Source: Bacteroidia bacterium (GTDB taxonomy: Bacteria > Bacteroidota > Bacteroidia > Flavobacteriales > Schleiferiaceae). From it: a stretch of DNA of 64,000 nucleotides. Under the pieces are notes generated by a model. The model had not been told where the DNA came from. It searched no databases and saw nothing but the letters and a program-made list of their open reading frames with translations. Positions 3,210 to 29,483 of this stretch are shown in pieces; the stretch's first letter is position 1; each line of letters starts with the position of its first letter. The position numbers were made by a program, and so were the translations under genes. The DNA is taken from contig JAUHWL010000009.1 in the NCBI GenBank assembly GCA_030424545.1, positions 1 through 64,000 of the forward strand, in the 5' to 3' direction.

Positions 3210-3959
3210 ATGAAAGTTAAACACGCCATTTACCTTTTTCTTCTTTCTGTAACACTCTTTGCCTGCACCATGGATCCTGCCCTAACCCTAGACATTCCGC
3301 CAGAAGGATTTCAGGTGGTACAACAACTGCCAAAAAACAATGAAGGCAGAAAAGAAAACCCCTTGTACCTTGCCCCGCGAAGCATTAAAGAAAACGAATT
3401 CAACTCGCCCGAACTCAATACATTTATTGATAGCATGTATGCCGTGATGCTGCGCACCGCTGGCGTGGGTATTGCTGCCAATCAACTGGGCAAACAACTG
3501 CAAATTTTTATCATAGAAGCCGAGGCCGATAACCCCCGGTATCAAGTTTTGGGCAATGTAAAAAAGCAGGTGTTCATCAACCCAAAAATTACCAATGCAT
3601 CTGCCCAACGCAAAAACTTTTGGCACGGATGCCTAAGCGCAAAAGATGAAAAACGTGGAAACGTAGCCACCTACGAATGGATTGAATACACATGCGTAAA
3701 CCCAAAAGGTGAAGTTCAAAAAGGCCGATTGGATGGATTTGCCGCAGTAATTTTTCAGCATGAATTTAGACATTTGCTCGGTGGTACGTATGTAGATCAT
3801 GCCCATCAGTTTTTAGGCAAAGCCGAATTAGACCAAAAAATTGAAGCCGGAGAACTCCCCTTTTTTGCGCCCGCAAACCACACGCTGCCGTTGCTTATTG
3901 AAGGGTATCAAATTGGAGAAACCTTAGAGGAATATCACGCACGTCAATCACAAATTTGA
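3210..3959 (+). CDS. Peptide deformylase-like lipoprotein
   Basis: A 249-aa protein of the polypeptide deformylase fold. It has the three family motifs: GVGIAANQ at 85-92, HGCLS at 139-143 (the usual EGCLS with Glu replaced by His) and QHEFRH with His184, Glu185 and His188. Cys141, His184 and His188 would bind the metal and Glu185 would be the general base. Unlike ordinary Def it begins with a lipoprotein signal ending LFAC (Cys19), so it is predicted to sit outside the cytoplasm. I chose ATG 3210; the longer frame from TTG 3174 places charged residues before the signal. It is probably not the housekeeping deformylase; it may act on secreted peptides or be repurposed. Confidence 0.8.
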   Translation: MKVKHAIYLFLLSVTLFACTMDPALTLDIPPEGFQVVQQLPKNNEGRKENPLYLAPRSIKENEFNSPELNTFIDSMYAVMLRTAGVGIAANQLGKQLQIFIIEAEADNPRYQVLGNVKKQVFINPKITNASAQRKNFWHGCLSAKDEKRGNVATYEWIEYTCVNPKGEVQKGRLDGFAAVIFQHEFRHLLGGTYVDHAHQFLGKAELDQKIEAGELPFFAPANHTLPLLIEGYQIGETLEEYHARQSQI

Positions 3960-4019
3960 TTATTCAAAATATCTTCTGTAGTGTATAAACTACTTTGATT
4001 AATCCCCAAAACAATCTGT

Positions 4020-6131
4020 ATGCATTCCCCACAAACGCTACTAAAAAATGTATTTGGTTACGATGCCTTTCGACCATTGCAACAAGAAATTATAGAACGC
4101 ACACTGGCCGGCAAAGACAGCTTTGTGTTGATGCCCACCGGTGGTGGAAAATCGATGTGTTTTCAGATTCCGGCTTTGTGTTTTCAGGGCATCACCATTG
4201 TGGTTTCTCCGCTTATTTCGTTAATGAAAGACCAAGTGCAAGCGCTGCAAGCCAACGGCATAAAAGCCGATTTCTTTAACAGCACTATTTCGCCCGAAGA
4301 AGAAAATGCAGTAATTAACCGTGCCATGAATGGCGAAATAAAGTTGTTGTATTTATCGCCCGAAAAACTAATTACCGTTAGCGATACCTGGCTAAAAACG
4401 TTAAACATAAAATTGGTGGCCATAGACGAAGCGCATTGTGTAAGTATGTGGGGCCACGATTTTAGACCCGAGTATACGCAGCTCAAATACTTTAGAAAAT
4501 CGCTGCCCAACGTGCCTTTTATGGCATTAACGGCCACAGCCGATAAATCGGCCCGAGCCGATATTGAGAACCAATTGGGATTGCAGAATGCCAAGTTGTT
4601 TATTTCTTCTTTCGACCGCAAAAACCTAAGCATAGATGTTCGCGGGCAAGTGCCGAAGAAGCAAAAGCTGGAAGAAATTGGGCGCTTCATCGACCGGAAA
4701 AAAAATGAAAGCGGCATCATTTATTGCCTCAGCAGAAAAAATACCGAAGAAGTTGCGAAGTTCTTAAAAGCTCACGGACACTCGGTGGCGTTTTACCACG
4801 CGGGCATGGATGCGGAATTGCGCGAGCGTGTGCAAACCGATTTTATAAATGATGACACCAAGATTATTGTGGCCACCATCGCCTTCGGAATGGGCATCGA
4901 TAAATCGAATGTGCGCTGGGTAATTCATTACAATTTGCCCAAAAACCTGGAAGGTTATTACCAAGAAATTGGCCGGGCTGGTCGAGACGGATTGCCCTCA
5001 GAAACCCGCTTGTATTACAACATGCGCGATTTTGTGTTGTACAGTCAGTTTGCCGATGACGGGGCAAATTCGGCCATGCAAAAAGACAAGCTGAACCGCA
5101 TGCTGCAATTTGCCGAAGCCAAATCGTGCCGCAGAAAAATACTCCTCTCCTACTTTGGCGAACACCTCACCCAAGATTGCGGCAATTGCGATGTGTGCGA
5201 CAATCCGCCCAAAGATTTTGACGGTACCATTTTGGCGCAAAAAGCCCTTTCGGGCATTGCCCGCATGCAAGAAAAAGAAGGCATAACCATGCTGATAAAT
5301 GTGCTGCGCGGATCCAATAATGCCGAAATTCACGAGGCCGGCTACACCCAACTCAAAACCTATGGCGTGGGCAAAGATGTTAGCTTTTACAATTGGCGCG
5401 ATTACATCATCCAGTTGGCCAACCAAGGGCTGATTGAGATTATGTACAGCGAAGGCTCGGCCTTAAAAATTTCGCCCCTGGGCTGGAAAGTGCTCAAAGG
5501 CGAACGGCACATAAAACTCACTTTCCCGGTAGCGCCCGAAGAGAAAAAAGACCGCAAACAAAAGGTGCTAAAATTGGCCACCGAAGGCGAAATAAACACC
5601 GATTTATTTACCGAACTAAAGAAATTGCGCTACACCATTTCGCGCGAAGAAAACATGCCGGCTTACATCATTTTTAACGATAAAACATTAAAAGCCATGG
5701 CCACCGAAATGCCCGTTACCGAAAATGAATTTTTAGCCATTTCGGGCGTGGGCATGAACAAAATGCAGCAGTATGGCGAAGATTTTATGGAAATGATTAG
5801 AAAGTTTAAGTCCGTTGCCAAACCCAAAAAAGTACCCACCACATTAGAGACTTTTGCGCTGTACCAAGAAGGCCTTTCGCCCCACGAAATTGCCGCCAAA
5901 AGAAACATTCAAGTTACCACGGTCTATTCGCATTTATCGCAATTGTACACCGAAGGCAAAGCCGTAGACCTAGAAAAAATGGTAGACGCAGCCACGCTCA
6001 ATAAAATCCGCGATGCCTTTAACGAATTGGGCAGAGACATCAAGCTAAAACCCATTTATGAAAAGCTCGAAGAAACCGTTTCGTATGGCGAAATCCGCAT
6101 GGGCCTGACCATTATTTTGAAGAATGAGTAA
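4020..6131 (+). CDS. recQ: ATP-dependent DNA helicase RecQ
   Basis: 3'-5' DNA helicase of recombination and fork repair, 703 aa. Domains in order: helicase core with Walker A MPTGGGKS (38-45, Lys44) and DEAH box (136-139); the second RecA-like domain with the motif VI sequence QEIGRAGRDG; a zinc site with Cys370, Cys387, Cys390 and Cys393; an RQC winged-helix region (about 400-510); an HRDC domain (about 525-605, with the AISGVGMNKMQQYG hairpin); and a C-terminal helix-turn-helix extension (about 610-703) seen in many Bacteroidota RecQ proteins. It starts 60 bases after the deformylase-like gene. Codon choice here is visibly richer in G and C than in the flanking accessory genes. Confidence 0.97.
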   Translation: MHSPQTLLKNVFGYDAFRPLQQEIIERTLAGKDSFVLMPTGGGKSMCFQIPALCFQGITIVVSPLISLMKDQVQALQANGIKADFFNSTISPEEENAVINRAMNGEIKLLYLSPEKLITVSDTWLKTLNIKLVAIDEAHCVSMWGHDFRPEYTQLKYFRKSLPNVPFMALTATADKSARADIENQLGLQNAKLFISSFDRKNLSIDVRGQVPKKQKLEEIGRFIDRKKNESGIIYCLSRKNTEEVAKFLKAHGHSVAFYHAGMDAELRERVQTDFINDDTKIIVATIAFGMGIDKSNVRWVIHYNLPKNLEGYYQEIGRAGRDGLPSETRLYYNMRDFVLYSQFADDGANSAMQKDKLNRMLQFAEAKSCRRKILLSYFGEHLTQDCGNCDVCDNPPKDFDGTILAQKALSGIARMQEKEGITMLINVLRGSNNAEIHEAGYTQLKTYGVGKDVSFYNWRDYIIQLANQGLIEIMYSEGSALKISPLGWKVLKGERHIKLTFPVAPEEKKDRKQKVLKLATEGEINTDLFTELKKLRYTISREENMPAYIIFNDKTLKAMATEMPVTENEFLAISGVGMNKMQQYGEDFMEMIRKFKSVAKPKKVPTTLETFALYQEGLSPHEIAAKRNIQVTTVYSHLSQLYTEGKAVDLEKMVDAATLNKIRDAFNELGRDIKLKPIYEKLEETVSYGEIRMGLTIILKNE

Positions 6132-6381
6132 AAATCCCACACCACAAATACTCCTTCTAGAAAGAAGGTTTACAACAAGGACCAAAACGTCAATGCGTGG
6201 TCGACCGCAGGGAGAGCGGGGTAATTGAAATTCCTAACAGGAGTTCACCACAATCTCACTTTTGCAATGCATTCCTTTCCAAACTTGGCAACAAAATATT
6301 TCACACCTAGTTAACCACTTCCAAGAAAATACTTGTTGCTTCAATTTAGAAGTCTTAACTAATGGTGGATTTTTTTGATAC
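6132..6381. other. Intergenic region between recQ and trkH
   Basis: Tail-to-tail intergenic space. A small hairpin CCTTCT/AGAAGG sits at 6153-6168 without a T-run, and a short GC-richer patch lies at 6200-6220. I see no gene or clear terminator. Confidence 0.4.
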
Positions 6382-7830
6382 CTACACCTTTTTCCAAAAG
6401 TAAGGCGTGAACATGATGAGAATGGTAAAAAGCTCTAACCTACCCAACAGCATTATAAATCCTAGAATCCATTTTGTAATATCGGGCAAAGCAGCAAAAT
6501 TATTTAACGGACCAACCACTCCAAAACCCGGACCAATGTTACCCAAACTGGTTGCCACCGCACCTAAAGTAGATTGCAAATCTAAACCGGTTAATCCTAC
6601 CAAAATGGCGCTAAGTACAAACACCGAAATGTACATCATGATAAAAGCCAGAACGTTGTAGGTAATGTTTTGCGAGATGGCTTTTCCATTTAAACGTACA
6701 GGAATAATGGCGTTTGGATGAAGCAAGCGTTTCATCTCTAAAAATGTGTTTTTAATAAGCACTACGTGCCGTACCATTTTTACGCCCCCTGCTGTAGATC
6801 CGGCCGAACCACCTAAGAACATAAAAAAGAAAAACAATACGGTTAGTAAAGGCGCCCAGCTTGTATAATCGGCAGAAACAAAACCGGTGGTTGTAATTAC
6901 AGATACCACCTGAAAAGCTCCGTCTCTAAAGGCTTTTTCAAATGGGGCATCTGTAAATGAGGCAATACCAACTGATGTAATGATGATGAAAATTAATGTG
7001 AGAGAAACATAGGTTTTAAACTCCTCATCTCTCCAAATCTTTTTAAGCTTGCCTTTTAGACCAAAATACGTAACGCTAAAGTTTACCCCGGCCAAAAACA
7101 TAAAACACAAAATAACATACTGTATATAAGGTGTTTGTTCTATCATAGAAGAATTATAGGTAGAAAATCCTCCGGTAGCCATGGTGGTTAACCCATGGTT
7201 TAAGGCATCAAAAAACGACATGTCGCCATACATAAGCAAAGCTGTTTCTGCAATGGTAAGCGACACATAAATAAGCCATAAACGAACGGCCGTATCTCTA
7301 ATTCTAGGTTTAATTTTATCGGCAGTAATTCCAGGTGCCTCGGCCAAAAACATTTGCATACCACCTACGCCAATCATGGGCAAAAGAGCTACGGTAAGCA
7401 CAATAATTCCCATACCGCCAATCCACTGCGTTAGGCTACGCCAGAATAAAATATTCTTCGGCACTGCTTCAATATCATTTAAGATAGATGCCCCCGTAGT
7501 GGTAAAACCACTCATGGTTTCAAAAAAAGCATCGGTAACAGTAAGGATAGACCCACTTAGCAAATATGGAAAGATGCCTACTGCAGCCATGGTAATCCAC
7601 CCTAAGCCCACCACAAGATATCCGTCTTTATTGCTTAGCTCTAATACTTTGGCTTTGCGCTTGTAATATTGCCAAATAAAAAAACCAATAAAAATGGCAC
7701 CAAACCCAGACACAGAAAGGGGCATTATGCTCTCTCCGTAGTAAAAAGCAAACGGCAAACCCAATAGCATGAAAATACCATTAAGTCCAATTAACAGGCC
7801 CAGAATACTTTTTATTAGTTTAAAATTCAT
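6382..7830 (-). CDS. trkH: Trk potassium uptake protein, TrkH family
   Basis: Potassium-translocating membrane subunit, 482 aa with about ten hydrophobic segments. The four selectivity-filter loops of the family are readable as FTTTGAS, TMATGGFST, TTTGFVSAD and LGNIGPGFG, each with the conserved Gly of the K+ pathway. The gene starts within the end of trkA (ATGA overlap at 7827-7830), so the two are translationally coupled. Potassium transport is driven by the membrane potential and gated by TrkA. High confidence in the family. Confidence 0.95.
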   Translation of the reverse strand: MNFKLIKSILGLLIGLNGIFMLLGLPFAFYYGESIMPLSVSGFGAIFIGFFIWQYYKRKAKVLELSNKDGYLVVGLGWITMAAVGIFPYLLSGSILTVTDAFFETMSGFTTTGASILNDIEAVPKNILFWRSLTQWIGGMGIIVLTVALLPMIGVGGMQMFLAEAPGITADKIKPRIRDTAVRLWLIYVSLTIAETALLMYGDMSFFDALNHGLTTMATGGFSTYNSSMIEQTPYIQYVILCFMFLAGVNFSVTYFGLKGKLKKIWRDEEFKTYVSLTLIFIIITSVGIASFTDAPFEKAFRDGAFQVVSVITTTGFVSADYTSWAPLLTVLFFFFMFLGGSAGSTAGGVKMVRHVVLIKNTFLEMKRLLHPNAIIPVRLNGKAISQNITYNVLAFIMMYISVFVLSAILVGLTGLDLQSTLGAVATSLGNIGPGFGVVGPLNNFAALPDITKWILGFIMLLGRLELFTILIMFTPYFWKKV

Positions 7831-9167
7831 TTAAAGAAATCTTCTACTTCGTGCACTTTGTTTTTGGCGCACAGCACCACTACTCTATCGTCTTTTCTAA
7901 TTCTAAACCCACCGTTGGGAATAATCGATTTTTCCTTGCGAACTACTCCACCAATAATGGCACCTTTTGGGAATTTTAAATGCTTTAAATATTGGGTTGT
8001 AATCTTCGATTTGTCGTTTACAAAGAACTCCAGCACCTCTGCATCAACACCATGAATACTGGCAATAGAAATAATATCTCCACGCCTTACGTACCTAAAA
8101 ATAAAATCTGCAGCTATAAGCTTTCTATTAATCATGGTATCTATACCAATGTTTTGAGAAAGGTGTACGTAATCTACATTTTCTACCAAGGCAACCGTTC
8201 TAGAAACACCCTGTTCCTTGGCCAAAAGGCTTGAGATAATATTGGTTTCTGAGTTTCCCGTAACGGCTATAAAAGCATCCATATGCTTAAGCCCTTCAGA
8301 CTCTAACAATTCTTTATTTCTTCCATCTCCATGCACTACTAATGCCTCAGGCAACCTATCGGCAAGATGAAAGCTCTTGTCTTTATCTAATTCAATTATC
8401 TTAACATTATAATTTGGGCATAGGTTGAGGGCTGTTTTATAGCCAATTTCGCTTCCCCCCAAAATCATTACGTTTTTAATTTTTACAGGCTCTTGTTTGC
8501 GAAACTGCAATACCTTTTTTACGCCAGATTCTGTCGCAATGAAATAGGCATGATCATCAATTTCAAATCGGGTATCTCCATGGGGAATAATTGTTTCATT
8601 ATTCCGCAAGATGGCCACTGTAATAAAATCATTGTCTAGATTTAAATAGGCGGTATCTTTTAACGTTTTATTCGCCAATTCACATTTATCGTCTATTAAA
8701 ATACCAAGCAGGGTTAGTTTACCATCTTCAAAATGAAAGATATCCGTAATCCCAATATTGCTTAACAACCTGCCAATTTCTTTAGACGCTAACATTTCTG
8801 TTGATATAATCTCATCAACACCTAATTCTCTTAATTGCTTGCGTTCTCTTTTTTGAAGGTGCGATATGGTTTTTACCCGTGCAATGGTTTTTTTGGCGCC
8901 TAAGTGCTTGGCAAAAATGGCCGATGTAATGTTTGTATCTTCAAAAGAAGTAACCGAAATAAAAAGGTCTGACTTGCTTACATTGGCCTCTTCTAGCGTT
9001 GCATACGAGGTTGAATTTCCTTTGATTGTAGCAACATCTAATTTTGAGGAAATGGTTTTTAGCTTTTCCTCGTCTAAATCTAAAACTACTATTTCATGTT
9101 TTTCGTAAGCAAGAAGTTTTGCTAAGTGAAAGCCAACGTCTCCGGCCCCTGCTAAAATTATTCTCAT
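7827..9167 (-). CDS. trkA: Trk system potassium uptake protein TrkA
   Basis: Cytosolic regulatory subunit, 446 aa, with the usual duplicated layout: an RCK/TrkA-N Rossmann domain starting at residue 1 (GAGDVGFHLAKLL, acidic end VLDLDEE), a TrkA-C domain, a second Rossmann domain near residue 227 (VMILGGSEIGYKTALNL) and a second TrkA-C at the end. It binds nucleotides and gates TrkH. It is the first gene of the trkA-trkH operon. Confidence 0.95.
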   Translation of the reverse strand: MRIILAGAGDVGFHLAKLLAYEKHEIVVLDLDEEKLKTISSKLDVATIKGNSTSYATLEEANVSKSDLFISVTSFEDTNITSAIFAKHLGAKKTIARVKTISHLQKRERKQLRELGVDEIISTEMLASKEIGRLLSNIGITDIFHFEDGKLTLLGILIDDKCELANKTLKDTAYLNLDNDFITVAILRNNETIIPHGDTRFEIDDHAYFIATESGVKKVLQFRKQEPVKIKNVMILGGSEIGYKTALNLCPNYNVKIIELDKDKSFHLADRLPEALVVHGDGRNKELLESEGLKHMDAFIAVTGNSETNIISSLLAKEQGVSRTVALVENVDYVHLSQNIGIDTMINRKLIAADFIFRYVRRGDIISIASIHGVDAEVLEFFVNDKSKITTQYLKHLKFPKGAIIGGVVRKEKSIIPNGGFRIRKDDRVVVLCAKNKVHEVEDFFK

Positions 9168-9338
9168 TCTATTCTGGGCAATATTTCCCTGATAATTAAA
9201 GGTGTAAAAGTAGTATTAATGTGCTTTGTTATAAACAACTTCTACTTTCTTTTAAACCGAAGAAAAGAAATCTTATTCATGTAGCTATACTGAAAAAAGA
9301 CGATTTTTCTTATCTTCAAATTACCAAAACCTAGAAAG

Positions 9339-11381
9339 TTGTTACACCGCTACCCCTTGCTTTTGCCACTGTTGGCCCTAGTTCTAGGCATTTTAATTGC
9401 CGGCTTTTTTGTTGCACCTTTTACTTTGGTAATTCTCATCCTATTTTTTACCCTCTTTTTTTTGTTGATGTGTGTTTTTGTAAAAAGGGCACAAAATCTA
9501 CTTTCATTTGGTTTTCTGTTTTTTTGCCTTGGTTGGATTTCTACAACGCTTTTAAATCAGCAATACAATCCATCGCATTTTACCCAATTACCGGTTGCTA
9601 AAAAGACCTATCTGGCCAAGGTTGAAGAAAGTGCCGTAGAAACTAAAAATGCCGTCCGGCTAGAAGTCTCCTTAATTCAGATACTAGATTCTACGAACCA
9701 GCGCGTTACTGGAAAAACTTTTCTGTACACTCCAAAAATTAAAGAAACCCTTCAACTTTTGCCTGGCGATTATTTTCTTTTTCATGCCGAATTAAAAGCG
9801 GCTTCGGCCCCTAAAAACCCGCACGAATTTGATTATAAAAACTATTTGTATTTGCACCAAATTTATGCACAAGGGTACACCAACAACATTTACGTGCTAG
9901 ACACGCATTTAAACTCTGCCAACCGCTTTTTTTCAACCTTACGGATTCGGCTTTTTGGCTACATAGAGGCCATGCAATTATCTGCCGAAGAAGAATCTGT
10001 AGCGGCAGCACTACTTTTAGGTTACCGGCATTTGCTATCCGACCAAACCCAGCAAGCCTTTGCAGGAGCGGGCGCAATGCATGTGCTAGCCGTATCTGGA
10101 TTACACGTAGGTATATTGTACATCATAACTGCATTCATCCTCAAGCTAGACAAACGGAAACCCTACAAAAACGGGTATCCAAAAGTTCTGCTTACTATAT
10201 TAATTATCTGGATATACGCTGCAACAACGGGGCTTTCGCCTTCTGTAAGTAGAGCTGCCATAATGTTTACCTTTATTGCTAGTGGCCATTTTTTTAAACG
10301 CAAACCAGCAACCTATCAAGCCATTATTGCTTCTGCAATTTTATTATTGGTGTACAATCCCAACAATTTATTTCAAGTAGGATTTCAGTTAAGCTATACG
10401 GCCGTGTTTGGCATTTTGTATTTGCAACCAAAAATTTACAACAGCATTCCTAAACCCAAAATGTTTATTGTTGATAGAATTTGGCAGATTACAGCCGTAT
10501 CTATTGCCGCTCAGGCCGCAACTTTTCCACTAAGTGTGTATTACTTCCATCAGTTTCCCGTTTTATTTTTCATTTCCAACTTGTTGGTGATTCCGCTAGC
10601 TTGGTTGTTGATGAATTACGGTATTTTTCTCTTGGTATTTTCATTGTTAATAACACCGCCTTACTGGTTGGTATTGCCTTTTCAATACTTATTAAAAACA
10701 ATGATTGTTACTGTAAACACAGTAGAAAAATGGCCTTTTTCGGTGTGGCATAAACTCAATGTTGGTCGTATTGAAATGTTTATCATTCTCATTCTTGTGT
10801 ATAGTTTAGCAACGGCTATTTGGCAGAAAAAGAAAATCGCTCTTTTCATATCCATGGTTTCAATTCTCATCATTGTGGGCATCCAAACATCTGATGCTAT
10901 TAAGCATAAGCAGCGTAAACAAATTACGTTCTACAGCATAAAAAATCAGGTTGCTATTGAGTATCAAAACCAAAAAAATGGATTTATTATTGGCACAAAA
11001 AAGCTACTTAACGATAAAGACGCCATGCTTTTTCACATGCTACATAATCAATGGGCAAATGGTTTAAAAAATCCTGACATATACTATATACATGAAAATA
11101 TTAATACCCAAAGGCTTATTGCAAACAGTGGATTTATTGAATTTGAAAACCAGCGTATTCTCTTGGTAGAAAATGCAACAGACAGCACCAAATTTGCTCT
11201 AAACCCAACGCATATCATTGTTGCCCCGCGCGTAAAACCATTTTATTCTATTCCCAAAAACTCAATCATTATTCTTACCAGTGGGCATCAAGAAAAAAAT
11301 ATTGCTGTTTGGCGAAATCGTTTTAAAGAGGCCATTGTCCTGCAAGAAACAGGTGCTTATGTAGTTGATTTATTGCGGTAA
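9339..11381 (+). CDS. comEC: ComEC/Rec2-family competence protein
   Basis: Inner-membrane DNA-uptake channel family, 680 aa. The N-terminal part has two or three membrane segments and a DUF4131-like soluble region (about 60-190). The ComEC core follows, with the signature around GAMHVLAVSGLHVGILY and many further membrane segments. The last 160 residues are soluble but lack the HxHxDH metallo-beta-lactamase motif, as in other Bacteroidota versions. The start is TTG 9339, giving MLHRYPLLLPLL, which fits the family; no ATG is close. It faces the next gene tail to tail with no spacer. Confidence 0.88.
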   Translation: MLHRYPLLLPLLALVLGILIAGFFVAPFTLVILILFFTLFFLLMCVFVKRAQNLLSFGFLFFCLGWISTTLLNQQYNPSHFTQLPVAKKTYLAKVEESAVETKNAVRLEVSLIQILDSTNQRVTGKTFLYTPKIKETLQLLPGDYFLFHAELKAASAPKNPHEFDYKNYLYLHQIYAQGYTNNIYVLDTHLNSANRFFSTLRIRLFGYIEAMQLSAEEESVAAALLLGYRHLLSDQTQQAFAGAGAMHVLAVSGLHVGILYIITAFILKLDKRKPYKNGYPKVLLTILIIWIYAATTGLSPSVSRAAIMFTFIASGHFFKRKPATYQAIIASAILLLVYNPNNLFQVGFQLSYTAVFGILYLQPKIYNSIPKPKMFIVDRIWQITAVSIAAQAATFPLSVYYFHQFPVLFFISNLLVIPLAWLLMNYGIFLLVFSLLITPPYWLVLPFQYLLKTMIVTVNTVEKWPFSVWHKLNVGRIEMFIILILVYSLATAIWQKKKIALFISMVSILIIVGIQTSDAIKHKQRKQITFYSIKNQVAIEYQNQKNGFIIGTKKLLNDKDAMLFHMLHNQWANGLKNPDIYYIHENINTQRLIANSGFIEFENQRILLVENATDSTKFALNPTHIIVAPRVKPFYSIPKNSIIILTSGHQEKNIAVWRNRFKEAIVLQETGAYVVDLLR

Positions 11382-12116
11382 TCATTGTTTAAAAATCGTA
11401 TAATATCCTTTTTCTGTCGGTATCGATTTTATAGCCAAACCATATTTTTCAAAATACACAGACGCTTTTTCAGGATCACAAATTATGGGGAAGTCAATAT
11501 TATAATAGCGGTTGTTTAATCCTTCAAATTCAAAATTATCAGTACATCTAATGTTTAAGAATTGTGCAATGTAAAACAGCGGCATCCCTTTAAACTTAAA
11601 TGTTTCGTCCTCATAACTACTGCCTACCATTTCTGGCGAATAAAATTTTTCTAACTGCAAAGAATCTTGAATGTATAGATAATGCATGGGCACTACACGC
11701 TTATTTTCTTCAATTTCTAAACGATAATAATCTACTATTTGCTGACCAATTAATGAGTCATAATCCATATCGAGAAAAAAGTCCTTCTCTACTTCAATAT
11801 CAAAAAACAAAGAATCTAATCCATGTAAATTATTTAATGTTATAAACTTTTCTGTCGTTTTTAAATGCGCAGCCATTACACCCGAAAAAGAAAAGCGGTA
11901 CCCCACATACCTTCTTGGGTCTCTTGTTGAGTAAAACCCATTTACCGTTGAATCTTCTTGTGGCTGGTAGGCATAAATTTTTAAGGAGTGGCCTTGAGTA
12001 GAATCTTTAATAATTAACTCAGCATTTTTATTAGGTGTAAATGGTTCTTTAGTACAGCTACTAATAACGGTGGACAACAATAAAACACCAAAAACTGATT
12101 TTAAAAAGGCACTCAT
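11382..12116 (-). CDS. Lipoprotein of unknown function
   Basis: A 244-aa predicted lipoprotein. Signal peptide with lipobox ISSC (Cys21) followed by TKEP. The remainder is soluble and rich in acidic and aromatic residues, with no motif I recognise. The start overlaps the end of the DciA-like gene by four bases, so it belongs to the recF operon. No catalytic residues can be proposed. Confidence 0.75.
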   Translation of the reverse strand: MSAFLKSVFGVLLLSTVISSCTKEPFTPNKNAELIIKDSTQGHSLKIYAYQPQEDSTVNGFYSTRDPRRYVGYRFSFSGVMAAHLKTTEKFITLNNLHGLDSLFFDIEVEKDFFLDMDYDSLIGQQIVDYYRLEIEENKRVVPMHYLYIQDSLQLEKFYSPEMVGSSYEDETFKFKGMPLFYIAQFLNIRCTDNFEFEGLNNRYYNIDFPIICDPEKASVYFEKYGLAIKSIPTEKGYYTIFKQ

Positions 12117-12412
12117 TTTAAGATGATTTCTTTAACCAATTCTCTTCCAATATGCTCGTTTAACGAAGCTATGAGTCTTGATTTGAGCATATTTAATTCT
12201 TGTTTTACTAACCCCGATTCTAAATAAACAGTTAATGTGCCTTTAAACAAATTTACTTTTCTAGTTTGTTTAGCAACGCTAGGCCCCAAGATATCATTCC
12301 AAACTTGGCCAATTTCTGCTTCTTGAAATTTTCTGTTTAGTTGATACTTCTTTAATATATCCTGCATTACTTCTTGCAGCGATTGTTCATTTTTCCGTTT
12401 CATTAATATCAC
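12113..12412 (-). CDS. DUF721 / DciA-like protein
   Basis: A 99-aa protein (or 96 aa from ATG 12403) of the DUF721 family, which includes the DnaB-loading factor DciA. Visible family pattern: an N-terminal helix with LQEVMQDILKKYQLNRK, the Trp in IGQVWNDILGPSVAKQT and a basic beta region KVNLFKGTLTVYLES. It overlaps the 3' end of recF and the 5' end of the lipoprotein gene. The recF-DUF721 neighbourhood is common. A role in replication initiation is inferred from the family. Confidence 0.82.
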   Translation of the reverse strand: MILMKRKNEQSLQEVMQDILKKYQLNRKFQEAEIGQVWNDILGPSVAKQTRKVNLFKGTLTVYLESGLVKQELNMLKSRLIASLNEHIGRELVKEIILK

Positions 12413-13508
12413 CTTGCGGATTAATTACAAATATTTTGGCTTCTTCGTTTATGCGTTTGGTAATGGCTTGTGTACGATCTTGGTGTGTATCTGAAATAAA
12501 TATTTGTCCAAAATGATGCTCATTCACCATTTTTATCAGGGCAGTAACGCGGCTCTCATCTAGTTTATCAAAAATATCGTCCAACAAAAGTAGCGGCAAA
12601 TATCCGTCTTGTTGTTTTAAAAAATCGAACTGCGCCAATTTTAACGCAATTAAAAATGTTTTCTGCTGCCCTTGGCTTCCTGCTTTTTTTAGTGGATAAT
12701 CTAACATGGTTAAGGCTAAATCATCTTTGTGTATGCCTTGCGATGTATATTGCAGCACCCTATCTTTAGCTTGCGCGTTTTTTAAGAGTTGTTTAAAATC
12801 GTTTTCATGTAGTGCACTTTCGTACTGCATGTTTATATGCTCCGCTCCGCCAGAAATAGCTTCGTAATACTTTAAAAGAATGGGTTTTAATTCCTCTATA
12901 AACTTTTTTCTTTTTTCATGTACCAACGCACCACGCTCTATAAGTTGCTCATCATATATGGCAAGTTGTTCAGCATCAAACGTGCGGTTAGCCGCAAAAT
13001 ACTTCAGCAGCGTGTTTCTTTGTTGCAATGCTCTATTATAGGCTAATAAATCATTTAAGTAGATTTTATCGCTTTGCGAAATAACACCATCAATAAATCT
13101 TCTGCGAATTTCGCTACCCTCTAAAACAATGTCTCTATCGCTAGGAGTAATAATGACCAACGGCAAGTGGCCAATGTGCTCAGACATTCTATCGTACATC
13201 TTGCCATTGCGCTTTACCGTTTTTTTCTGGCCACGTTTAAGCGCTACACTAATTTTATCGGGCTTACTTCCTTTTAAGAAGGCTCCTTCAACCAAAAAGT
13301 AATCTTCTCCATGTTTTATGTTCTGGCTATCTACTGCATTGTAATAACTCTTAGTTACACTCAGGTAATATATAGCATCTAAAATGTTTGTTTTGCCAAC
13401 ACCGTTGTTGCCTACCAAACAGTTTATCTTAGAAGAAAACTGGAGTTTTGCTTCTGAATAATTCTTAAAATTTAGGAGATGTAAATCCGATAAAGTAATC
13501 GCTTGCAT
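12387..13508 (-). CDS. recF: DNA replication and repair protein RecF
   Basis: SMC-like ATPase that helps load RecA at gaps, 373 aa from ATG 13508 (MQAITLSDLHLLNFKNY). The open frame continues 25 codons upstream, but RecF proteins begin at this motif. Walker A GNNGVGKT at 33-40, the signature-like GSQGQQKTFLIALKLAQ near 300 and Walker B LLLLDDIFDKLD are present. Its 3' end overlaps the DUF721 gene. Confidence 0.95.
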   Translation of the reverse strand: MQAITLSDLHLLNFKNYSEAKLQFSSKINCLVGNNGVGKTNILDAIYYLSVTKSYYNAVDSQNIKHGEDYFLVEGAFLKGSKPDKISVALKRGQKKTVKRNGKMYDRMSEHIGHLPLVIITPSDRDIVLEGSEIRRRFIDGVISQSDKIYLNDLLAYNRALQQRNTLLKYFAANRTFDAEQLAIYDEQLIERGALVHEKRKKFIEELKPILLKYYEAISGGAEHINMQYESALHENDFKQLLKNAQAKDRVLQYTSQGIHKDDLALTMLDYPLKKAGSQGQQKTFLIALKLAQFDFLKQQDGYLPLLLLDDIFDKLDESRVTALIKMVNEHHFGQIFISDTHQDRTQAITKRINEEAKIFVINPQGDINETEK

Positions 13509-13613
13509 GCGGTAAAAATAAGTATAGAAACTTGGAGAGCGCAAATAAAAAAGCCTCGAATAACAACAGTTTTTAACGACCAAAGCGAATAAAAAAATTA
13601 AAAAAACTCACGG

Positions 13614-13643
13614 TTTGTCAATATCATAAAAAAACTATTTTTG
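13614..13643 (+). promoter_or_regulatory. Promoter for the TPR-ribH pair
   Basis: TTTG at 13614-13617, 18 bases, then TATTTTTG at 13636-13643: a close match to the Bacteroidota sigma-A promoter. The first ATG follows at 13666. Confidence 0.7.
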
Positions 13644-13665
13644 CCCGTCAATAAAAAATTGAATA

Positions 13666-14367
13666 ATGGCCAAGAAGACCGTAAAAAAAGATCAGACAAC
13701 AGAAGTATTAGAAAACGTTGAACAAAGTCTGACTAAGGCAGAAATATTTTTTGAAAAGAATAAAAATCCACTTTTAGTAGGAACAGGAGTTGTAGTTGCT
13801 CTAGTTTTAGCATTTTACGGATATACAAAATATTTTGTAGAACCTTTAGAGGCCGAAGCGCAAAAAGAGGTTTTTATGGCACAAAAATATTTTGAACAAG
13901 ACTCATTAAAGCTTGCCCTAAACGGTAATGGAAATGATATGGGTTTTCTTGATATAGCTGAAGAATACAGCAGCACCAAAATTGGTAACCTTGCTAACTA
14001 TTACGCGGGTGTATGCTACTTAAACCTTGGTCAGTTTGAAAACGCTATAGAATATTTAGACAAGTTTGACGGCAATGATGAAGTACTAAGCGTTATTTCT
14101 GTTGGTGCTATAGGCGATGCCTTTTTAGAATTAAATCAGGCAGAAGAAGCTTTAGACTACTATACTAAGGCTACCAAAGTAAACAACAATGAGTTTGTAA
14201 TTCCTATCTATTTAATGAAGGCAGCGCAAACGGCAGAGATATTAAAAGATTATAAAGCCGCTCTAGGTTTTTATACACGATTGAAAAAAGATTTTTCTGA
14301 AAGTCCTGAAGCAAAAGACGTAGATAAAAACATTGCTTTTGCAGAAACCAAGTTGGCTAATTCCTAA
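13666..14367 (+). CDS. Membrane-anchored tetratricopeptide protein
   Basis: A 233-aa protein: a short Lys-rich cytosolic tail, one membrane segment at about 36-57 and a soluble C-terminal domain with TPR-like repeats (NYYAGVCYLNLGQFENAIEY, then AIGDAFLELNQAEEALDYYT, then a third near the end). The layout resembles YfgM, which works near the Sec translocon and chaperones, but the equivalence is uncertain. Its stop overlaps the ribH start by one base. Confidence 0.8.
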   Translation: MAKKTVKKDQTTEVLENVEQSLTKAEIFFEKNKNPLLVGTGVVVALVLAFYGYTKYFVEPLEAEAQKEVFMAQKYFEQDSLKLALNGNGNDMGFLDIAEEYSSTKIGNLANYYAGVCYLNLGQFENAIEYLDKFDGNDEVLSVISVGAIGDAFLELNQAEEALDYYTKATKVNNNEFVIPIYLMKAAQTAEILKDYKAALGFYTRLKKDFSESPEAKDVDKNIAFAETKLANS

Positions 14368-23980: not shown

Positions 23981-24055
23981 GGGCGATTAGCTCAGCTGGT
24001 TCAGAGCACCTGCCTTACAAGCAGGGGGTCACTGGTTCGAACCCAGTATTGCCCA
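23981..24055 (+). tRNA. tRNA-Val (UAC), integration target
   Basis: A 75-nt tRNA with acceptor GGGCGAT / ATTGCCC, anticodon loop CTTACAA, T loop GGTTCGAACC. Its last 45 bases plus the next base (24011-24056) are repeated exactly at 29438-29483. An integrative element entered here and restored the tRNA 3' half. Confidence 0.97.
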
Positions 24056-24056
24056 C
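24011..24056 (+). repeat. Left attachment-site copy (inside tRNA-Val)
   Basis: A 46-bp sequence from the anticodon arm to the tRNA 3' end, identical to 29438-29483. The flanks differ on both sides (C versus A before it, T versus A after it), which fixes the repeat boundaries. Confidence 0.95.
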
Positions 24057-24064
24057 TCAAAATC

Positions 24065-24101
24065 AAGGAGTTACAATGTAAAAATTGTAACTCCTTTTTT
24101 A
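24065..24101. terminator. Terminator supplied by the element next to tRNA-Val
   Basis: AAGGAGTTACAAT (24065-24077) pairs perfectly with ATTGTAACTCCTT (24084-24096), followed by T. It would end both the tRNA transcript and, on the other strand, the ATP-grasp transcript. The likely original tRNA terminator now lies at 29485-29516. Confidence 0.85.
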
Positions 24102-24121
24102 TTTGCACACAATTTGCACAC
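24101..24121 (+). promoter_or_regulatory. Left pair of putative integrase arm-type sites
   Basis: Two exact copies of ATTTGCACAC at 24101-24110 and 24112-24121 (11-base step). Three more copies in the same orientation lie at the right end of the element. Confidence 0.7.
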
Positions 24122-24124
24122 TTT

Positions 24125-25096
24125 TTAGGCAGTTACATAGCCAAAGTGTTTGGCAGCAGCTACGGCATAAGATGAAACACCGTTAACCTTTCCGGCAAAT
24201 TCGCGGGCGGCTTTTGCATATTCTTTGTAAATATCAACCTTCACAACATCGGCAATCTTAACGCCCCAGTTTGTATTGACTTCTAAAACCTTTGCGTTGC
24301 CGTTTTCATCTCTTATTAAATCTACTGCCGCATATTTTAACCCAATGGCCTCGGCTGCATTTATGCAAATTTCTTTTTCGGATTCGGTCAATTCTATTTC
24401 TACACCTTCAGCTCCCTGAGAAATATTGGTTTTCCAATTATCATCTTTTGCAATTCGTTTCATGCTTGCGGCAACTTGGTAGCCATCTGAATAATGAATT
24501 AACGCCCGTATGTCTGCCGCTTTGTCTTCTGAGGGCTTAAAGTATTCGTTTATTATTACTTTCTCATTGGTGCGCTCATAAGCCTCTAAACGCGCCTCCA
24601 GTACTTCACGGGTTCGGCAAATATGAACATCATCGCCCTGACTTCCACCGAAAGCGGTTTTTACTATAACGGGGTAATTAAATTTGTTTTCTATTATCGC
24701 TATTCGCTTACGTGGTTCTGCATCGTAGTACGTGCGTGCAACGGGTAAACCATTTAAACGCAAAACTCTAGAAGTTTCTAATTTACTTCGGGCAATAAGT
24801 ATTGCATCTGGATCCTGAACTAATGAAATGTGCGGGTACTTTTCGCGAATCAACCTTAACACCTCGCACCCGTGCAAAACATCTTGCCCCATTCGGGTAA
24901 CTACCAAATTAAAAGAACGCACACTTAACCGTTCGCCATTGTGATAAAAATGGTCATGCTCGTTTTCTTGCGCTAAATAGTAGCTTAATGATTGGTGATT
25001 AATAGTGGTTACTTCATCGCCCTGGCGTTTAAAAGCTTCAATATATTTTGGGTTTCCGTTTCCGTCTTTGTTATTAGTGATAAATAATACTTTCAT
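24125..25096 (-). CDS. RimK-like ATP-grasp ligase, element cargo
   Basis: A 323-aa ATP-grasp enzyme close to RimK, which adds glutamate to the C terminus of ribosomal protein S6. The N-terminal pre-ATP-grasp domain (1-115) is followed by the ATP-grasp fold: YPVIVKTAFGGSQGDDV (ATP lid), IINEYFKPSEDKAADIRALI, DNWKTNISQGAEG (RimK has a similar Arg/Asn-containing loop) and the metal site KVLEVNTNW. The stretch after EVN differs from RimK (NWGVKI where RimK has SPGLEG), suggesting another acceptor. It lies on the mobile element, divergent from a small peptide gene 360 bases away. Such enzymes also install ester or amide rings in graspetide RiPPs. Family sure; substrate inferred. Confidence 0.85.
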   Translation of the reverse strand: MKVLFITNNKDGNGNPKYIEAFKRQGDEVTTINHQSLSYYLAQENEHDHFYHNGERLSVRSFNLVVTRMGQDVLHGCEVLRLIREKYPHISLVQDPDAILIARSKLETSRVLRLNGLPVARTYYDAEPRKRIAIIENKFNYPVIVKTAFGGSQGDDVHICRTREVLEARLEAYERTNEKVIINEYFKPSEDKAADIRALIHYSDGYQVAASMKRIAKDDNWKTNISQGAEGVEIELTESEKEICINAAEAIGLKYAAVDLIRDENGNAKVLEVNTNWGVKIADVVKVDIYKEYAKAAREFAGKVNGVSSYAVAAAKHFGYVTA

Positions 25097-25455
25097 TTGG
25101 TTTATTTTTAATTATTTCTGTAAATCTGAAGCTTTACAACGAGCCATTAAAGGACAAAGAAAATTCGCTTTTAGACTCATATATCCGATTAAAAAATTTT
25201 GTGTAATTACAGGCTGTAAATAGGGCTTGCCGCGTGGCATTTAGAGTAAAAACCGCTTTTTATGAATTTAAAAAATTCTCAAAACTCTAACTATCAATGC
25301 ATTACCCAAAAAAGCGTGATTTTTTTATTTTTCGCACAACGAAAGAAATTTTCGTCTGAAACGAAAGAAATTGACGCAATAAACGAAAGTAATTGACGCG
25401 CTTTTTGTTGGTTGTTTATGGATTTGGTTTTAGCTTTCAGAAAAAATAAATTGAT
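25097..25455. other. Divergent control region between ligase and peptide genes
   Basis: 359 bases of very AT-rich DNA without a gene. It contains three iterons at 25339-25398 and a 13-base sequence ATTAAAGGACAAA (25146-25158) repeated at 27964-27976. Promoters for both divergent genes must lie here, but no clear TAnnTTTG box is visible. Confidence 0.6.
25339..25398 (+). repeat. Three direct repeats with 22-bp period (iterons)
   Basis: ACGAAAGAAATTTTCG (25339), ACGAAAGAAATTGACG (25361) and ACGAAAGTAATTGACG (25383) are spaced exactly 22 bp apart, two helical turns. This is typical of replication-initiator iterons or a cooperative operator. They end 58 bases upstream of the peptide gene start. 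Confidence 0.8.
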
Positions 25456-25623
25456 ATGAAAACACCAACAGAATTAGAGAATTTTTTAGCAACTGCAAGT
25501 GATGAAAGATTAAAAAGCTTTGTAGAATTTGCCAATAAAAAAGGCGGGTTAAATATTGATCAGATTAAACGGGCAAATAAAGGTGACGAAATTAACATTG
25601 TTATTACCGGCTGCGGTTTGTGA
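25456..25623 (+). CDS. 55-aa peptide, candidate substrate of the ATP-grasp ligase
   Basis: A small open frame of 55 codons, ATG 25456 to TGA 25621. The peptide starts MKTPTELENFLATASDERLK, an amphipathic helical region rich in Glu and Lys like a RiPP leader. It continues SFVEFANKKGGLNIDQIKRA and ends GDEINIVITGCGL, with Gly, Cys and Thr. It has no signal peptide and no membrane segment. It is unlike any family I know. Support for it being real: in-frame ATG, sensible protein-like composition, defined control region upstream and a very strong hairpin 20 bases after the stop. That it is modified by the divergent RimK-like enzyme is inference. It could instead be a small regulator. Confidence 0.55.
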   Translation: MKTPTELENFLATASDERLKSFVEFANKKGGLNIDQIKRANKGDEINIVITGCGL

Positions 25624-25643
25624 CTTCTATACTACTTTTCTTC

Positions 25644-25711
25644 GCCTCATCACTTTATCACTTTACTTTACCGCCTATATATAGGCGGGTAAAGTGATAA
25701 AGTGATGAGGC
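25644..25711. repeat. Large hairpin with 32-bp stem
   Basis: The arms 25644-25666 and 25689-25711 (23 bp) pair perfectly, and inside them 25671-25688 is a perfect 18-bp palindrome (CCGCCTATA / TATAGGCGG). A 4-base bulge (25667-25670) separates the two stems. The arms contain tandem AAAGTGAT repeats, and a related copy (TAAAGTGTTAAAGTGATA) occurs at 25735-25752. It lies between convergent genes and may act as terminator, but has no T-run; a replication or processing role is also possible. Confidence 0.85.
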
Positions 25712-25753
25712 TTTAACGTTTTACCCTATCGCTTTAAAGTGTTAAAGTGATAA

Positions 25754-27103
25754 TCAAAACGGTATTTCCGGACCCGAACTAAACGAATAAGGCCCGCGTT
25801 TTTCATTCTGAAATATTATATCTCGATCTTTTAGAATGGTGATAATTTCACCCGCTTTGTTAAGTCCAATATCTTGATAATTAGACGTGAAAACTGATTT
25901 AATTTTTTCTTGTAAATCCTTGTATTTCAGCTTTTCACTTCCAGTAAATACCGTTTCGGCAAATTTGATATAATCATTATCTTTAAAACTACTCAAAACA
26001 TCAATATTCTGCTTTTTTGCCTTTTGCGATATACTTGGCTGCCAATCAGCATCTAATTGGGGCAATCCATTATCATCAATATAAAATGCAAAATCTGGCG
26101 GAGTTTCCCCTCGGGTATCAGTAAATTTTACAATTGACGTATCACTTTCAGAACTTTGCCTTTCAACTGTAAAAACAGTTTCCGCTTTATTTACCAACTC
26201 TGTACCTAAATGACCGCGTGCATAATCATTCCCTTTATTTTGGTGCAAAACCACAATGATGTGTATTTTATAATCTTCTGACCATTGCATTAATTTAGAA
26301 GATAGTTTAGTGGCTTGCTCCTCATCATTTATAGAAGATACTAAATCACGCGCACCGTCAATAACAACAAATCTCAATTGGTTGGTTTCTGAATTAAAAC
26401 TGTTTATTGCGTGCTCAATGACATTTAACCTCTCTAAAAAGTGATATTTCCTTAATCCATAAACTCTAAAATCATTTGGCAATTTATGATCTTCACTATA
26501 CTCTGCTAATCGCTCAATTCGTTTTAAAACTTTTGAAACTGAATATTGACTTTGTTCTGTATCAAAATATAATACGCCCGTTTTGCCTTCGGGTCGCGTT
26601 GCCTCTATCTTGTCTAATATCTTTTTACGACATATTGACGCTGCAATTATAGAAGACAAATAAAATGTCTTTTTAGCTTTTGCCTTGCCGATTACAAGCG
26701 AAAAATCACCTTCATGGCCTATATCATAAATTTTATCTTCAAATGAAATAGTTAGAAAAACTGGCGGCTTCTCGATAGACATATTTGGCCATATCCGCGC
26801 CTCCTCAAGTATTGTATCATACTTATCTAATTCACATTGAAATATAGACTCATTCGACTCTATAAATAGATTTGAATTCGAATAATCAGTAAAATAATTG
26901 GCATTTATACGACTTCCTTCAAATAAAAAATTATCCTGAATATAAAATGCAATTTCTTTTAATTTGGCTCCGGAATATTTATATTTTTCAATCAATTTTA
27001 GTAATTCCTTTACTGCTCCTTCGGCTCCCGCCAAACTAGTCAAGCCACCTAAATAATTGTCGACTATTGAAAAAAAAGCATCGTTTTTGCTATATTTGTT
27101 CAT
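25754..27103 (-). CDS. AAA_25-type (RepA/KaiC-like) ATPase
   Basis: A 449-aa RecA-fold ATPase of the kind found on Bacteroidota mobile elements and related to RepA-type hexameric helicases. Walker A is unusual, GKAKAKKT at 139-146 (Lys instead of the last Gly before the catalytic Lys). Walker B is FVVIDG at 245-250, followed by the sensor stretch VVLHQNKGNDYARGHLG. The N-terminal 110 residues and C-terminal 80 residues (wHTH-like) are of unknown role. It is transcribed after the two HTH genes with a 51-base gap. Likely involved in element replication or maintenance; no primase gene accompanies it. Confidence 0.82.
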   Translation of the reverse strand: MNKYSKNDAFFSIVDNYLGGLTSLAGAEGAVKELLKLIEKYKYSGAKLKEIAFYIQDNFLFEGSRINANYFTDYSNSNLFIESNESIFQCELDKYDTILEEARIWPNMSIEKPPVFLTISFEDKIYDIGHEGDFSLVIGKAKAKKTFYLSSIIAASICRKKILDKIEATRPEGKTGVLYFDTEQSQYSVSKVLKRIERLAEYSEDHKLPNDFRVYGLRKYHFLERLNVIEHAINSFNSETNQLRFVVIDGARDLVSSINDEEQATKLSSKLMQWSEDYKIHIIVVLHQNKGNDYARGHLGTELVNKAETVFTVERQSSESDTSIVKFTDTRGETPPDFAFYIDDNGLPQLDADWQPSISQKAKKQNIDVLSSFKDNDYIKFAETVFTGSEKLKYKDLQEKIKSVFTSNYQDIGLNKAGEIITILKDRDIIFQNEKRGPYSFSSGPEIPF

Positions 27104-28004: not shown

Positions 28005-29261
28005 TTAATCAAAATCCATTAACTTATTGGCAAACGCCTTTTTTGTTTCGTCTTCAAATCCGGCAAAATAATTTTGAGTTGTTTTGATGTTTTTATGCCC
28101 TAAACTTTCTTGTACAAATTCCATTGATTCTCCTTTTCTCAATGCCTTTGTTGCAAAACTATGTCTTGCCCAGTAGGTTGAAATATCCTCGGTTATATTG
28201 TTTGCTTTGGCTAGTTTTTTAATGTGTTGATTAATAAAACGGGTAAAATTTTTGATTCGCTTTTTCTCCTCTTCCGGAGTTATTGAGTTTTCAATGATCT
28301 GAAATATATAATCAGTTTCTAAATTAGATTTTCTTTTATACTTTTCAATTATTCCGGCTGAAAATTCATTAAGATGTACCTCAATTGGGATTAGTTTTTC
28401 TTTTGATGTTAGACTAGTTTTTGCACGGTAAAAACTGAATTTATCATTCTTTATATCTCTAAATCTTAAACGTGCTAAATCTTTTACATTAATACCGCTA
28501 CAATTATAAATTAAGAACCAAAAATCTTTTGCCTTTTGTTGTTCCGGAGTAATTGGTTTACTGAAATACAAGGCTTTTAATTCAGCTTCACTCAATGCTT
28601 TCTTTTTATTAAGCTTTGACGGTACTTGGTATTTTCTTTTGCCAAATGGGTAAAATTCTTCTTGAATATCCTTTGCCGCTATTGCATTATTAAAAACCGT
28701 TCGCAAGGTTCTAACGTAAATACTTAAGGTGTTAACACTTCTATTTTTATCGGTAAGCATATAATATTCATAGTCTTTTAACCAGTCAACGGTAACATCA
28801 AAAAAAGTTAACTTTTCAAATGATCCTTTGCTATACTTTTTTAAAAAGGCTATAAAAGATTTTTCAGCAAGTGAATAAATTTCCATAGTAGAAACTTGAT
28901 CCCTTTTCTTTAATTCTGCAATTGCACATTTATAATGATATTTAACCGAGGTTCCGTCTGTGGCTTTACGGTACATTCTCTTTTCAAATTGTTCAAAAGT
29001 GAAGACCTCAATTTCATTTACAACTTTTACGGCTTTTGCTTTTATGGCCTCAACTTGTTCCTTTAGCTCTTTATTCTTACCTCTAGGATTTTCAGCTTTT
29101 ACAGACGCTTCAAATTCTTTAGAAGTTAGATCAAACATAGTTGGGAATAACTTGCGCTTTTTTGTTCTGGAGTGAAAAACACGGAGTTTTAATGGATACT
29201 TACCGCTTTCTTTTTGCCTTCTTTGATCTAAGTAAATAGATACTGAAACCTCGTTTGTCAT
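28005..29261 (-). CDS. int: Tyrosine recombinase (integrase)
   Basis: Site-specific integrase of the element, 418 aa from ATG 29261. An N-terminal arm-binding domain (EVSVSIYLDQRRQKESGKYP), a SAM-like core-binding domain (about 95-200) and the catalytic domain. Box II is WARHSFATKAL, then SLGHKNIKTT and the nucleophile Tyr398 in QNYFAG. The first catalytic Arg is not at its usual place: the motif reads SGINVKDL where many integrases have TGLRxSEL, as in a Bacteroidota subgroup. The open frame extends to 29318, but those codons only translate the ATTTGCACAC repeats and lie in the promoter, so I reject that start. Confidence 0.93.
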   Translation of the reverse strand: MTNEVSVSIYLDQRRQKESGKYPLKLRVFHSRTKKRKLFPTMFDLTSKEFEASVKAENPRGKNKELKEQVEAIKAKAVKVVNEIEVFTFEQFEKRMYRKATDGTSVKYHYKCAIAELKKRDQVSTMEIYSLAEKSFIAFLKKYSKGSFEKLTFFDVTVDWLKDYEYYMLTDKNRSVNTLSIYVRTLRTVFNNAIAAKDIQEEFYPFGKRKYQVPSKLNKKKALSEAELKALYFSKPITPEQQKAKDFWFLIYNCSGINVKDLARLRFRDIKNDKFSFYRAKTSLTSKEKLIPIEVHLNEFSAGIIEKYKRKSNLETDYIFQIIENSITPEEEKKRIKNFTRFINQHIKKLAKANNITEDISTYWARHSFATKALRKGESMEFVQESLGHKNIKTTQNYFAGFEDETKKAFANKLMDFD

Positions 29262-29270
29262 CTTGATTTT

Positions 29271-29311
29271 ATTTGCACACAAATATATCCATTTGCACAC
29301 GATTTGCACAC
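29271..29311. promoter_or_regulatory. Right triplet of arm-type sites and integrase promoter
   Basis: Three exact copies of ATTTGCACAC at 29271-29280, 29291-29300 and 29302-29311. On the minus strand TATATTTG (29287-29280), a consensus -7 box, touches the first copy, so integrase bound to its arm sites could repress its own gene. Confidence 0.68.
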
Positions 29312-29437
29312 AAAACACAGAATAAAGATAAATAAACGATAATTAAAAAATAATGAAAAACCCTTATAATCGGGCTTTAACGGTATTTAAATAAAGAAAT
29401 TGATAAGAAACGGACATTAAACAAGGGGCTATTTTTA

Positions 29438-29483
29438 TGCCTTACAAGCAGGGGGTCACTGGTTCGAACCCAGTATTGCCCAC
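29438..29483 (+). repeat. Right attachment-site copy (tRNA-Val 3' fragment)
   Basis: 46 bp identical to 24011-24056. No 5' half of the tRNA lies in front of it, so this is a remnant and not a second gene. Confidence 0.95.

Follow-up and report, generated by a model that had tools for sequence, protein, structure and literature searches.

A RimK-like ligase gene beside the attachment site of a small element integrated in tRNA-Val

Ligases of the RimK type are known both for housekeeping roles and from the genomes of large phages. In a stretch of 64,000 nucleotides from a bacterium of the class Bacteroidia (the window, taken at its full length), a gene for such a ligase lies next to a 55-codon gene on a small mobile element. 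This raised the question of what the ligase modifies: the 55-amino-acid (55-aa) protein encoded beside it, as the original prediction had proposed, or another protein. Our analysis supported the complete ligase gene, a probably real small gene and the mobile element, while the proposal of the 55-aa protein as substrate was weakened. We favor instead the other alternative of the original prediction, in which the ligase acts on a host or phage protein to the advantage of the element.

The element, its ends and its origin-like block

The mobile nature of the locus, claimed in the original prediction, was borne out by an integrase gene and by exact ends in tRNA-Val. Two identical 46-bp repeats bound an element of 5,427 bp (Table 1). 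From the integrase end inward, the order is the integrase gene, two genes for HTH_17 proteins, the AAA_25 ATPase gene, a palindrome, the 55-codon gene, iterons, and the ligase gene. Family searches recognized no transfer or packaging genes among the six listed genes of the element. Therefore, the element would need a helper phage or a conjugative element to move, and by analogy it looks like a helper-dependent element of the hitcher or satellite type.

The motif TTTGCACAC was found at 24102 and 24113 at the ligase end and at 29272, 29292, and 29303 at the integrase end. The ATTTGCACAC-type 11-bp repeat pairs close to both ends of the element are probably integrase arm sites. The integrase was 32% identical to that of a second element (locus L056, described below), with the alignment beginning at residue 20, and the 111-aa HTH_17 protein was 27% identical to an HTH_17 protein of the same locus. 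The GTG listed as the integrase start is probably too early, since an ATG at 29261 agrees with the relative in L056. The part specific to the GTG-start version (29261 to 29318) overlaps the arm-site repeats.

Table 1. Features of the element and its integration site (positions in the window)
Feature	Position	Strand	Basis
tRNA-Val (TAC), intact; integration target	23981..24056	+	ARAGORN
attL, 46-bp repeat spanning the tRNA-Val from anticodon loop to 3' end	24011..24056		Identical to 29438-29483
Two 11-bp ATTTGCACACA repeats on the ligase side; putative integrase arm sites	24101..24121		TRF
RimK-like ATP-grasp ligase, 323 aa	24125..25096	-	Pfam RimK, E 4.9e-31
Three 22-bp iterons; probable replication origin	25338..25403		TRF 25338-25399, period 22, 2.8 copies; exact motif three times
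55-aa protein gene; probable replication-block accessory, judged by position	25456..25623	+	Codon score
68-nt palindrome with 8-bp AAAGTGAT repeats; putative two-way terminator and/or origin hairpin	25644..25711		Repeat and folding analysis
AAA_25 ATPase, possible replicative helicase, 449 aa	25754..27103	-	Pfam AAA_25, E 5.4e-9
HTH_17 (PF12728) protein, excisionase/AlpA-like, 111 aa	27155..27490	-	Pfam HTH_17, E 2e-10
Second HTH_17 protein, 73 aa	27487..27708	-	Pfam HTH_17, E 1.7e-10
Tyrosine integrase	28005..29318	-	Pfam Phage_integrase (PF00589), E 2.3e-15
Two 11-bp repeats resembling the 24101-24121 pair, integrase side; putative arm sites	29291..29311		TRF
attR, 46-bp repeat	29438..29483		Repeat comparison

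Iterons between the ligase and peptide genes, and a large hairpin past the peptide gene, had been noted before, and both are present in the sequence. The iteron motif AACGAAAGWAATT occurs exactly at 25338, 25360, and 25382, with a spacing of 22 bp; by chance, exact matches to it had a mean of 0.01 per simulated 64 kb. The palindrome has perfect 23-bp arms and is single copy in the genome assembly, the other match being its own reverse strand. The 161-nt stretch holding the hairpin (25600 to 25760) folded at a z score of -11.4 relative to shuffled versions. Sigma-70-type sites in the region were not above chance (20 found, 21.4 expected). Together, the iterons, the palindrome, and the AAA_25 ATPase look like a replication module. 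The exact element ends, and the union of the iterons, the peptide gene, the palindrome, and the ATPase gene in one block, go beyond the original prediction.

The IncQ replicon of RSF1010 likewise has iterons, hairpins, and a RecA-fold helicase. Sequence search did not bear out this likeness: the AAA_25 protein had no match by sequence among solved helicases, and neither an iteron-binding RepC nor a primase was recognized on the element. We also examined three relatives of the AAA_25 gene (L035, L057, and L058). Those in L057 (region 3550 to 12771) and L058 (region 5945 to 13739) lie near a Type ISP-like restriction-methylase gene and near type I restriction genes, respectively. A perfect palindrome or iteron array like that of the window was absent from all three; L057 had only a 76% palindrome rich in AT, and L058 a single 22-nt repeat in two copies. 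No homologue of the 55-aa peptide was found in them either. In L058, a zinc-ribbon/DUF6371 protein is encoded between the AAA_25 gene and tRNA-Arg, and two adjoining open reading frames (ORFs) at 8858 to 9574, the second with an HExxH motif, are possibly one broken metallopeptidase-like gene.

The ligase and its relative in a second element

The ligase gene had been described as a complete RimK-family gene on the minus strand, divergent from the peptide gene, and Pfam confirmed the family (108.2 bits for RimK, with a cut-off of 21). For TIGR00768, the window ligase scored 140.8 bits, just below the cut-off of 143.4, and its relative in L056 scored 151.1, above it. The best solved relatives were RimK-type alpha-L-glutamate ligases (E 5.5e-25), with which the window ligase shares the RimK ATP-grasp domain and the conserved ATP-grasp residues. 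RimK adds glutamate to the C terminus of ribosomal protein S6. The window ligase could modify S6 in the same way and retune host translation, and 13 of the 16 cyanophage records with a similar protein are indeed annotated as S6 glutaminyl transferase. We nevertheless consider this role unlikely, because the S6-ligase equivalog PRK10446 (cut-off, 331 bits) was missed widely by both the window ligase (91.9 bits) and the L056 relative (86.0 bits), whereas the chromosomal RimK of the host, a positive control, passed at 394.6 bits. Moreover, NLHRGG and EVNSSPG of the host RimK are replaced by SQGA and EVNTN[WY]G in the element ligases. The window ligase further differs from the S6 ligase in its substrate-side motifs and in that it is mobile, in a host that has its own RimK. 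The gene of that chromosomal RimK has a Zn_protease (PF05618) gene on one side and an AstE/AspA-like gene on the other. No RimB-like protease gene lies beside the window ligase, unlike in rimABK of Pseudomonas, the RimK system used for comparison (PMC7343187).

The ligase might also make or modify a small molecule, as do MptN, CofF, and other RimK-superfamily ligases. MptN was the second-best NCBIfam model (123.9 bits), but its cut-off of 350 was missed, as were those of LysX (74.5 of 275.6 bits) and CofF (53.4 of 300 bits), and no pathway genes were recognized on the element. The chance that the ligase has such a role is therefore small.

Among 296 genomes of the order, searched at an E value of 1e-25, the ligase had matches in 35. 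Beyond the window's own, a single match exceeded 31% identity, namely, that in G009:C47 (CAJXNI010000047.1, locus L056), with 41 to 42% identity and an E value of 1.5e-62. A second search of genome contigs returned the same G009 contig, and another found no relative. Profiles were also searched against 395 genomes at the class level (E 1e-40) and 395 at the phylum level (E 1e-37), two sets sharing some of their genomes with that of the order; this added L065 and two matches with an internal TAG codon. L065 was rejected as an element-type ligase since it carries IPRIG and EVNGN instead. The other two, L070 and L071, are RimK-like matches from different genomes of the same genus, and each contains one internal TAG codon. 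In the viral collection, neither the peptide nor the ligase alone as a query found a relative, and one motif pattern had no match; a match of another pattern, L069, was spurious and out of frame. Two further searches gave 4 and 5 viral loci, which were set aside as phage RimK-like genes (29 to 35% identity). Such ligases thus number two among the matches listed (G000 and G009), and any statement on co-occurrence with the peptide rests on one comparison. Among the papers listed in literature searches, no title or abstract opening described such a ligase on a satellite or another small integrating element.

L056 is an incomplete contig of 9,187 bp from a metagenome-assembled genome (MAG) of the same family as the host and of a different genus, and it carries a different element. 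The ligase gene there lies 18 bp behind a terminase small-subunit gene (PF05119, E 1.8e-8; phrog_83, E 2.2e-23). On the opposite side, the ligase gene is followed by arm-like repeats of 11 bp, a 3' fragment of tRNA-Arg or att core, and then the integrase gene. The contig also encodes a 747-aa protein, whose virion match was weak, and a replication-initiation-like protein. An identical 54-bp block is common to L056 (7369 to 7422) and an intact chromosomal tRNA-Arg of the same MAG (L079, 5161 to 5235); L056 therefore carries a joined att site. The junction would represent an excised or circular form, or else mixed strains in the MAG; the element probably excises. The contig showed no terminal overlap, and neither an integrase nor a ligase was seen by eye in 11 kb around the chromosomal tRNA-Arg. 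A single TTTGCACAC at 5290 to 5310 of L079, about 60 bp past the tRNA-Arg, is possibly due to chance or a relic.

The ligase gene is next to the att site in both elements, its 3' end pointing toward the 3' end of the tRNA; in the integrated form, it occupies the end opposite the integrase. The two elements have the integration genes and the ligase in common; their replication genes differ, and the peptide is not shared.

Conserved residues were compared in an alignment of 32 rows, comprising 30 genome rows and the two element ligases, with the two viral rows left out; since L065 was aligned and uncounted, 29 chromosomal RimK rows remained. Both element ligases keep 31 and both change 57 of the 110 columns conserved in these rows. 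Residues kept in both include K105, K146, G151, Q153, G154, D195, R197, D259, E272, and N274, and the residues around ATP/Mg that are conserved in chromosomal RimK are retained. The motifs VTRxG, KTAxGGSQGxDV, and EVNTN[WY]GVKI are common to both, at places where conserved RimK columns differ. In a tree of 23 of 34 rows (the 11 with stops, due to wrong-strand reading, were left out), which shows the grouping of the element ligases only, these two grouped together with support of 100/99, and their end branches were long (5.81 and 3.85). A structure model of the ligase built from the two sequences was poor (pLDDT 52.7). As judged from sequence, this looks like a distinct ligase clade with intact ATP-grasp residues, beside the att sites of two different tRNA-integrating elements.

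The ligase gene could instead be passive cargo, captured by the element without a function for it. There are two carriers only among the matches listed, and no partner gene is known. However, the ATP-grasp residues are intact in two elements of different genera, the att-bordering position is the same in both, and the coding score of the window ligase is normal (0.232). We consider passive cargo very unlikely.

Viruses, namely cyanophages and those of further phage contigs, also carry RimK-like ligases (phrog_2599). They differ from the window ligase in their distance (25 to 35% identity) and in the length of the phage records (169 to 194 kb). The IMG/VR proteins L060 and L080 to L084 have EVNSSPG, EVNGTPG, or ECNGSPG, not EVNTN[WY]G. 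In L060 (29 to 1480) and L080 (902 to 3073), the RimK-like domain is followed by a stretch with AKFDTGNGT, which we take to resemble a RimB-type protease, and L080 has an N-terminal extension; Pfam gave no protease match on L060. In L084 (116 to 3593), the RimK-like gene lies beside further phage-type genes, presumably resembling those for a sliding clamp, clamp loader, and RegA of a T4-like phage.

The 55-codon gene as a candidate substrate gene

The length of the 55-codon ORF alone was unremarkable. When the 657-nt gap was simulated 20,000 times with a first-order Markov model, 3,696 versions contained an ATG-initiated ORF of at least 55 aa, and 844 of 5,000 plain shuffles also contained an ORF of that length. 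Its codon score, at 0.303 bits per codon, was reached by none of 4,082 chance ORFs. As controls, 270 55-codon pieces of genes from the window had a mean of 0.20 (SD, 0.12), and 40 spurious ORFs within genes scored at most 0.17. Because its score was above those of all chance ORFs, the 55-codon ORF is probably a real gene; it is present as first described and scores as coding.

Neither 98 relatives (own genome excluded) at an E value of 0.001 nor the remaining 295 genomes of the order yielded a homologue of the peptide; weak hits in 12 of the latter (E 0.006 to 0.045) were taken as chance, since they lie in other, mostly much longer frames. Viral contigs and plasmids gave none. Thirteen phage records matching at E values of 2 to 5 (9 helicases, 2 unannotated proteins, and 2 hypothetical proteins) were also attributed to chance, as were PHROG matches at 0.026 and 0.11. 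Among protein families, including PADLOC, none matched at a useful E value. A single-sequence structure model of the peptide showed a helix-helix-strand-strand arrangement (pLDDT 72.8). Of the 201 Foldseek matches to this model (E values up to 10), the best had an E value of 0.47, so that none came to 0.001 or below. The top sequence match in the PDB, Outer Surface Protein A (E 0.029), was rejected as a fold relative.

The 55-aa protein could be the substrate of the ligase, either as the precursor of a ribosomally synthesized and modified peptide (RiPP) or as an extendable or conjugable tag, with its C terminus extended or rings closed in its tail. The two genes are adjacent and divergent on a small element, and the N-terminal half of the peptide is helical in the model. 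A GG pair at residues 30 and 31, together with a C39 peptidase domain encoded by the host (C11:90616-90972, within a 747-aa frame), could permit leader removal and export. An ATP-grasp enzyme near a small peptide gene is also what graspetide ligases of the MvdC and SAV_5884 group present. However, the window ligase was far under the cut-offs for these maturases (MvdC, 21.6 of 425 bits; SAV_5884, 29.3 of 350 bits), and there is no transporter on the element. Both the leader motif Phhx(1,2)h and the one core motif tested, TxxxTx(6-10)Dx(1-4)D, were absent from the peptide, and it was rejected as a graspetide precursor; the leader motif occurs in only about half of graspetide precursors, according to PMC8939145, from which the core motif was also taken. 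A LysW-like carrier was likewise rejected on account of the C terminus, GCGL, and the LysX score of the ligase given above. The C terminus of LysW-like proteins is EDWGE.

The second element also bears on the question. The original prediction paired the peptide with the ligase, and the search for their co-occurrence turned up, on one incomplete contig, a ligase relative of 41% identity without a similar peptide in the available 9.2 kb. A tblastn search of L056 with the peptide gave a best E value of 0.89, and no similar small ORF lies between the ligase and integrase genes. This result, which the original prediction had named as evidence against its reading, weakened the claim of the peptide as substrate, and the lack of peptide homologues in the genomes, viral contigs, plasmids, and phages searched, the absent graspetide motifs, and the low maturase scores weakened it further. 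We regard a substrate role of the 55-aa protein as improbable. Since its gene had no homologue in these searches and lies inside the block of iterons, palindrome, and ATPase gene, a role in replication is suggested rather than that of a substrate. A replication or copy-control accessory, a role based on position, is thus more likely. A single intergenic region separates the divergent peptide and ligase genes, which could be coregulated.

A possible role of the ligase in conflicts with phages

Taken as a whole, our best explanation, which we put forward tentatively and with not quite even confidence, is that the ligase gene travels as accessory cargo on a satellite- or hitcher-like element and that its product acts on a protein of the host or of a phage. 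The integrase, the two HTH_17 proteins, the arm-like repeats, and the att repeats would form an integration module; the three iterons, the palindrome, and the ATPase would provide the element with its own origin block, and the 55-aa protein encoded there would serve as a replication or copy-control accessory. With its gene placed as cargo between the att site and the origin block, the ligase would activate a carboxylate at the expense of ATP, probably a C terminus or an acidic side chain in a protein of the host or of a phage, and would attach an amino acid to this group within the cell. The benefit, to the element or to the host, would most plausibly arise in competition with phages.

The proposed satellite lifestyle draws on an analogy with PICMI. 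According to PMC10803314, PICMI satellites share with the window element an integrase (PF00589), an HTH_17/AlpA-like protein (PF12728), a replication gene, and accessory genes at the att end, and their defense genes occupy a slot between the primase and the att side. The window element differs in having AAA_25 in place of a DUF3987/DUF5906 primase and tRNA-Val in place of the fis site; packaging by a helper phage is at most predicted for it. The restriction genes beside the AAA_25 relatives, together with the defense slot of PICMI, suggest by analogy that the element may gain from an alteration of a phage or host protein by the ligase. A similar role in phages was proposed for a different ATP-grasp clade, R2K, by the authors of PMC4431377 and PMC7824862.

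PADLOC, run on the ligase, the peptide, and the AAA_25 protein, gave no match for the first two and a weak one to mad8 for the third (E 1.5e-4). The HTH proteins scored 31.6 and 18.4 bits with the NCBIfam model MADS1, under its cut-off of 80. In a bolder version, which we rate as rather unlikely, the ligase would found a new clade of satellite-borne protein ligases, outside the defense models used, whose target for amino-acid addition is a phage or host protein (such as a terminase small subunit or a translation factor) and which thereby interfere with helper or competing phages.

With one enzyme gene of about 1 kb, the system is small, so proteomics could reveal the substrate. If true, a distinct ligase clade beside att sites would suggest that amino-acid ligation is a means of conflict among elements, phages, and hosts.
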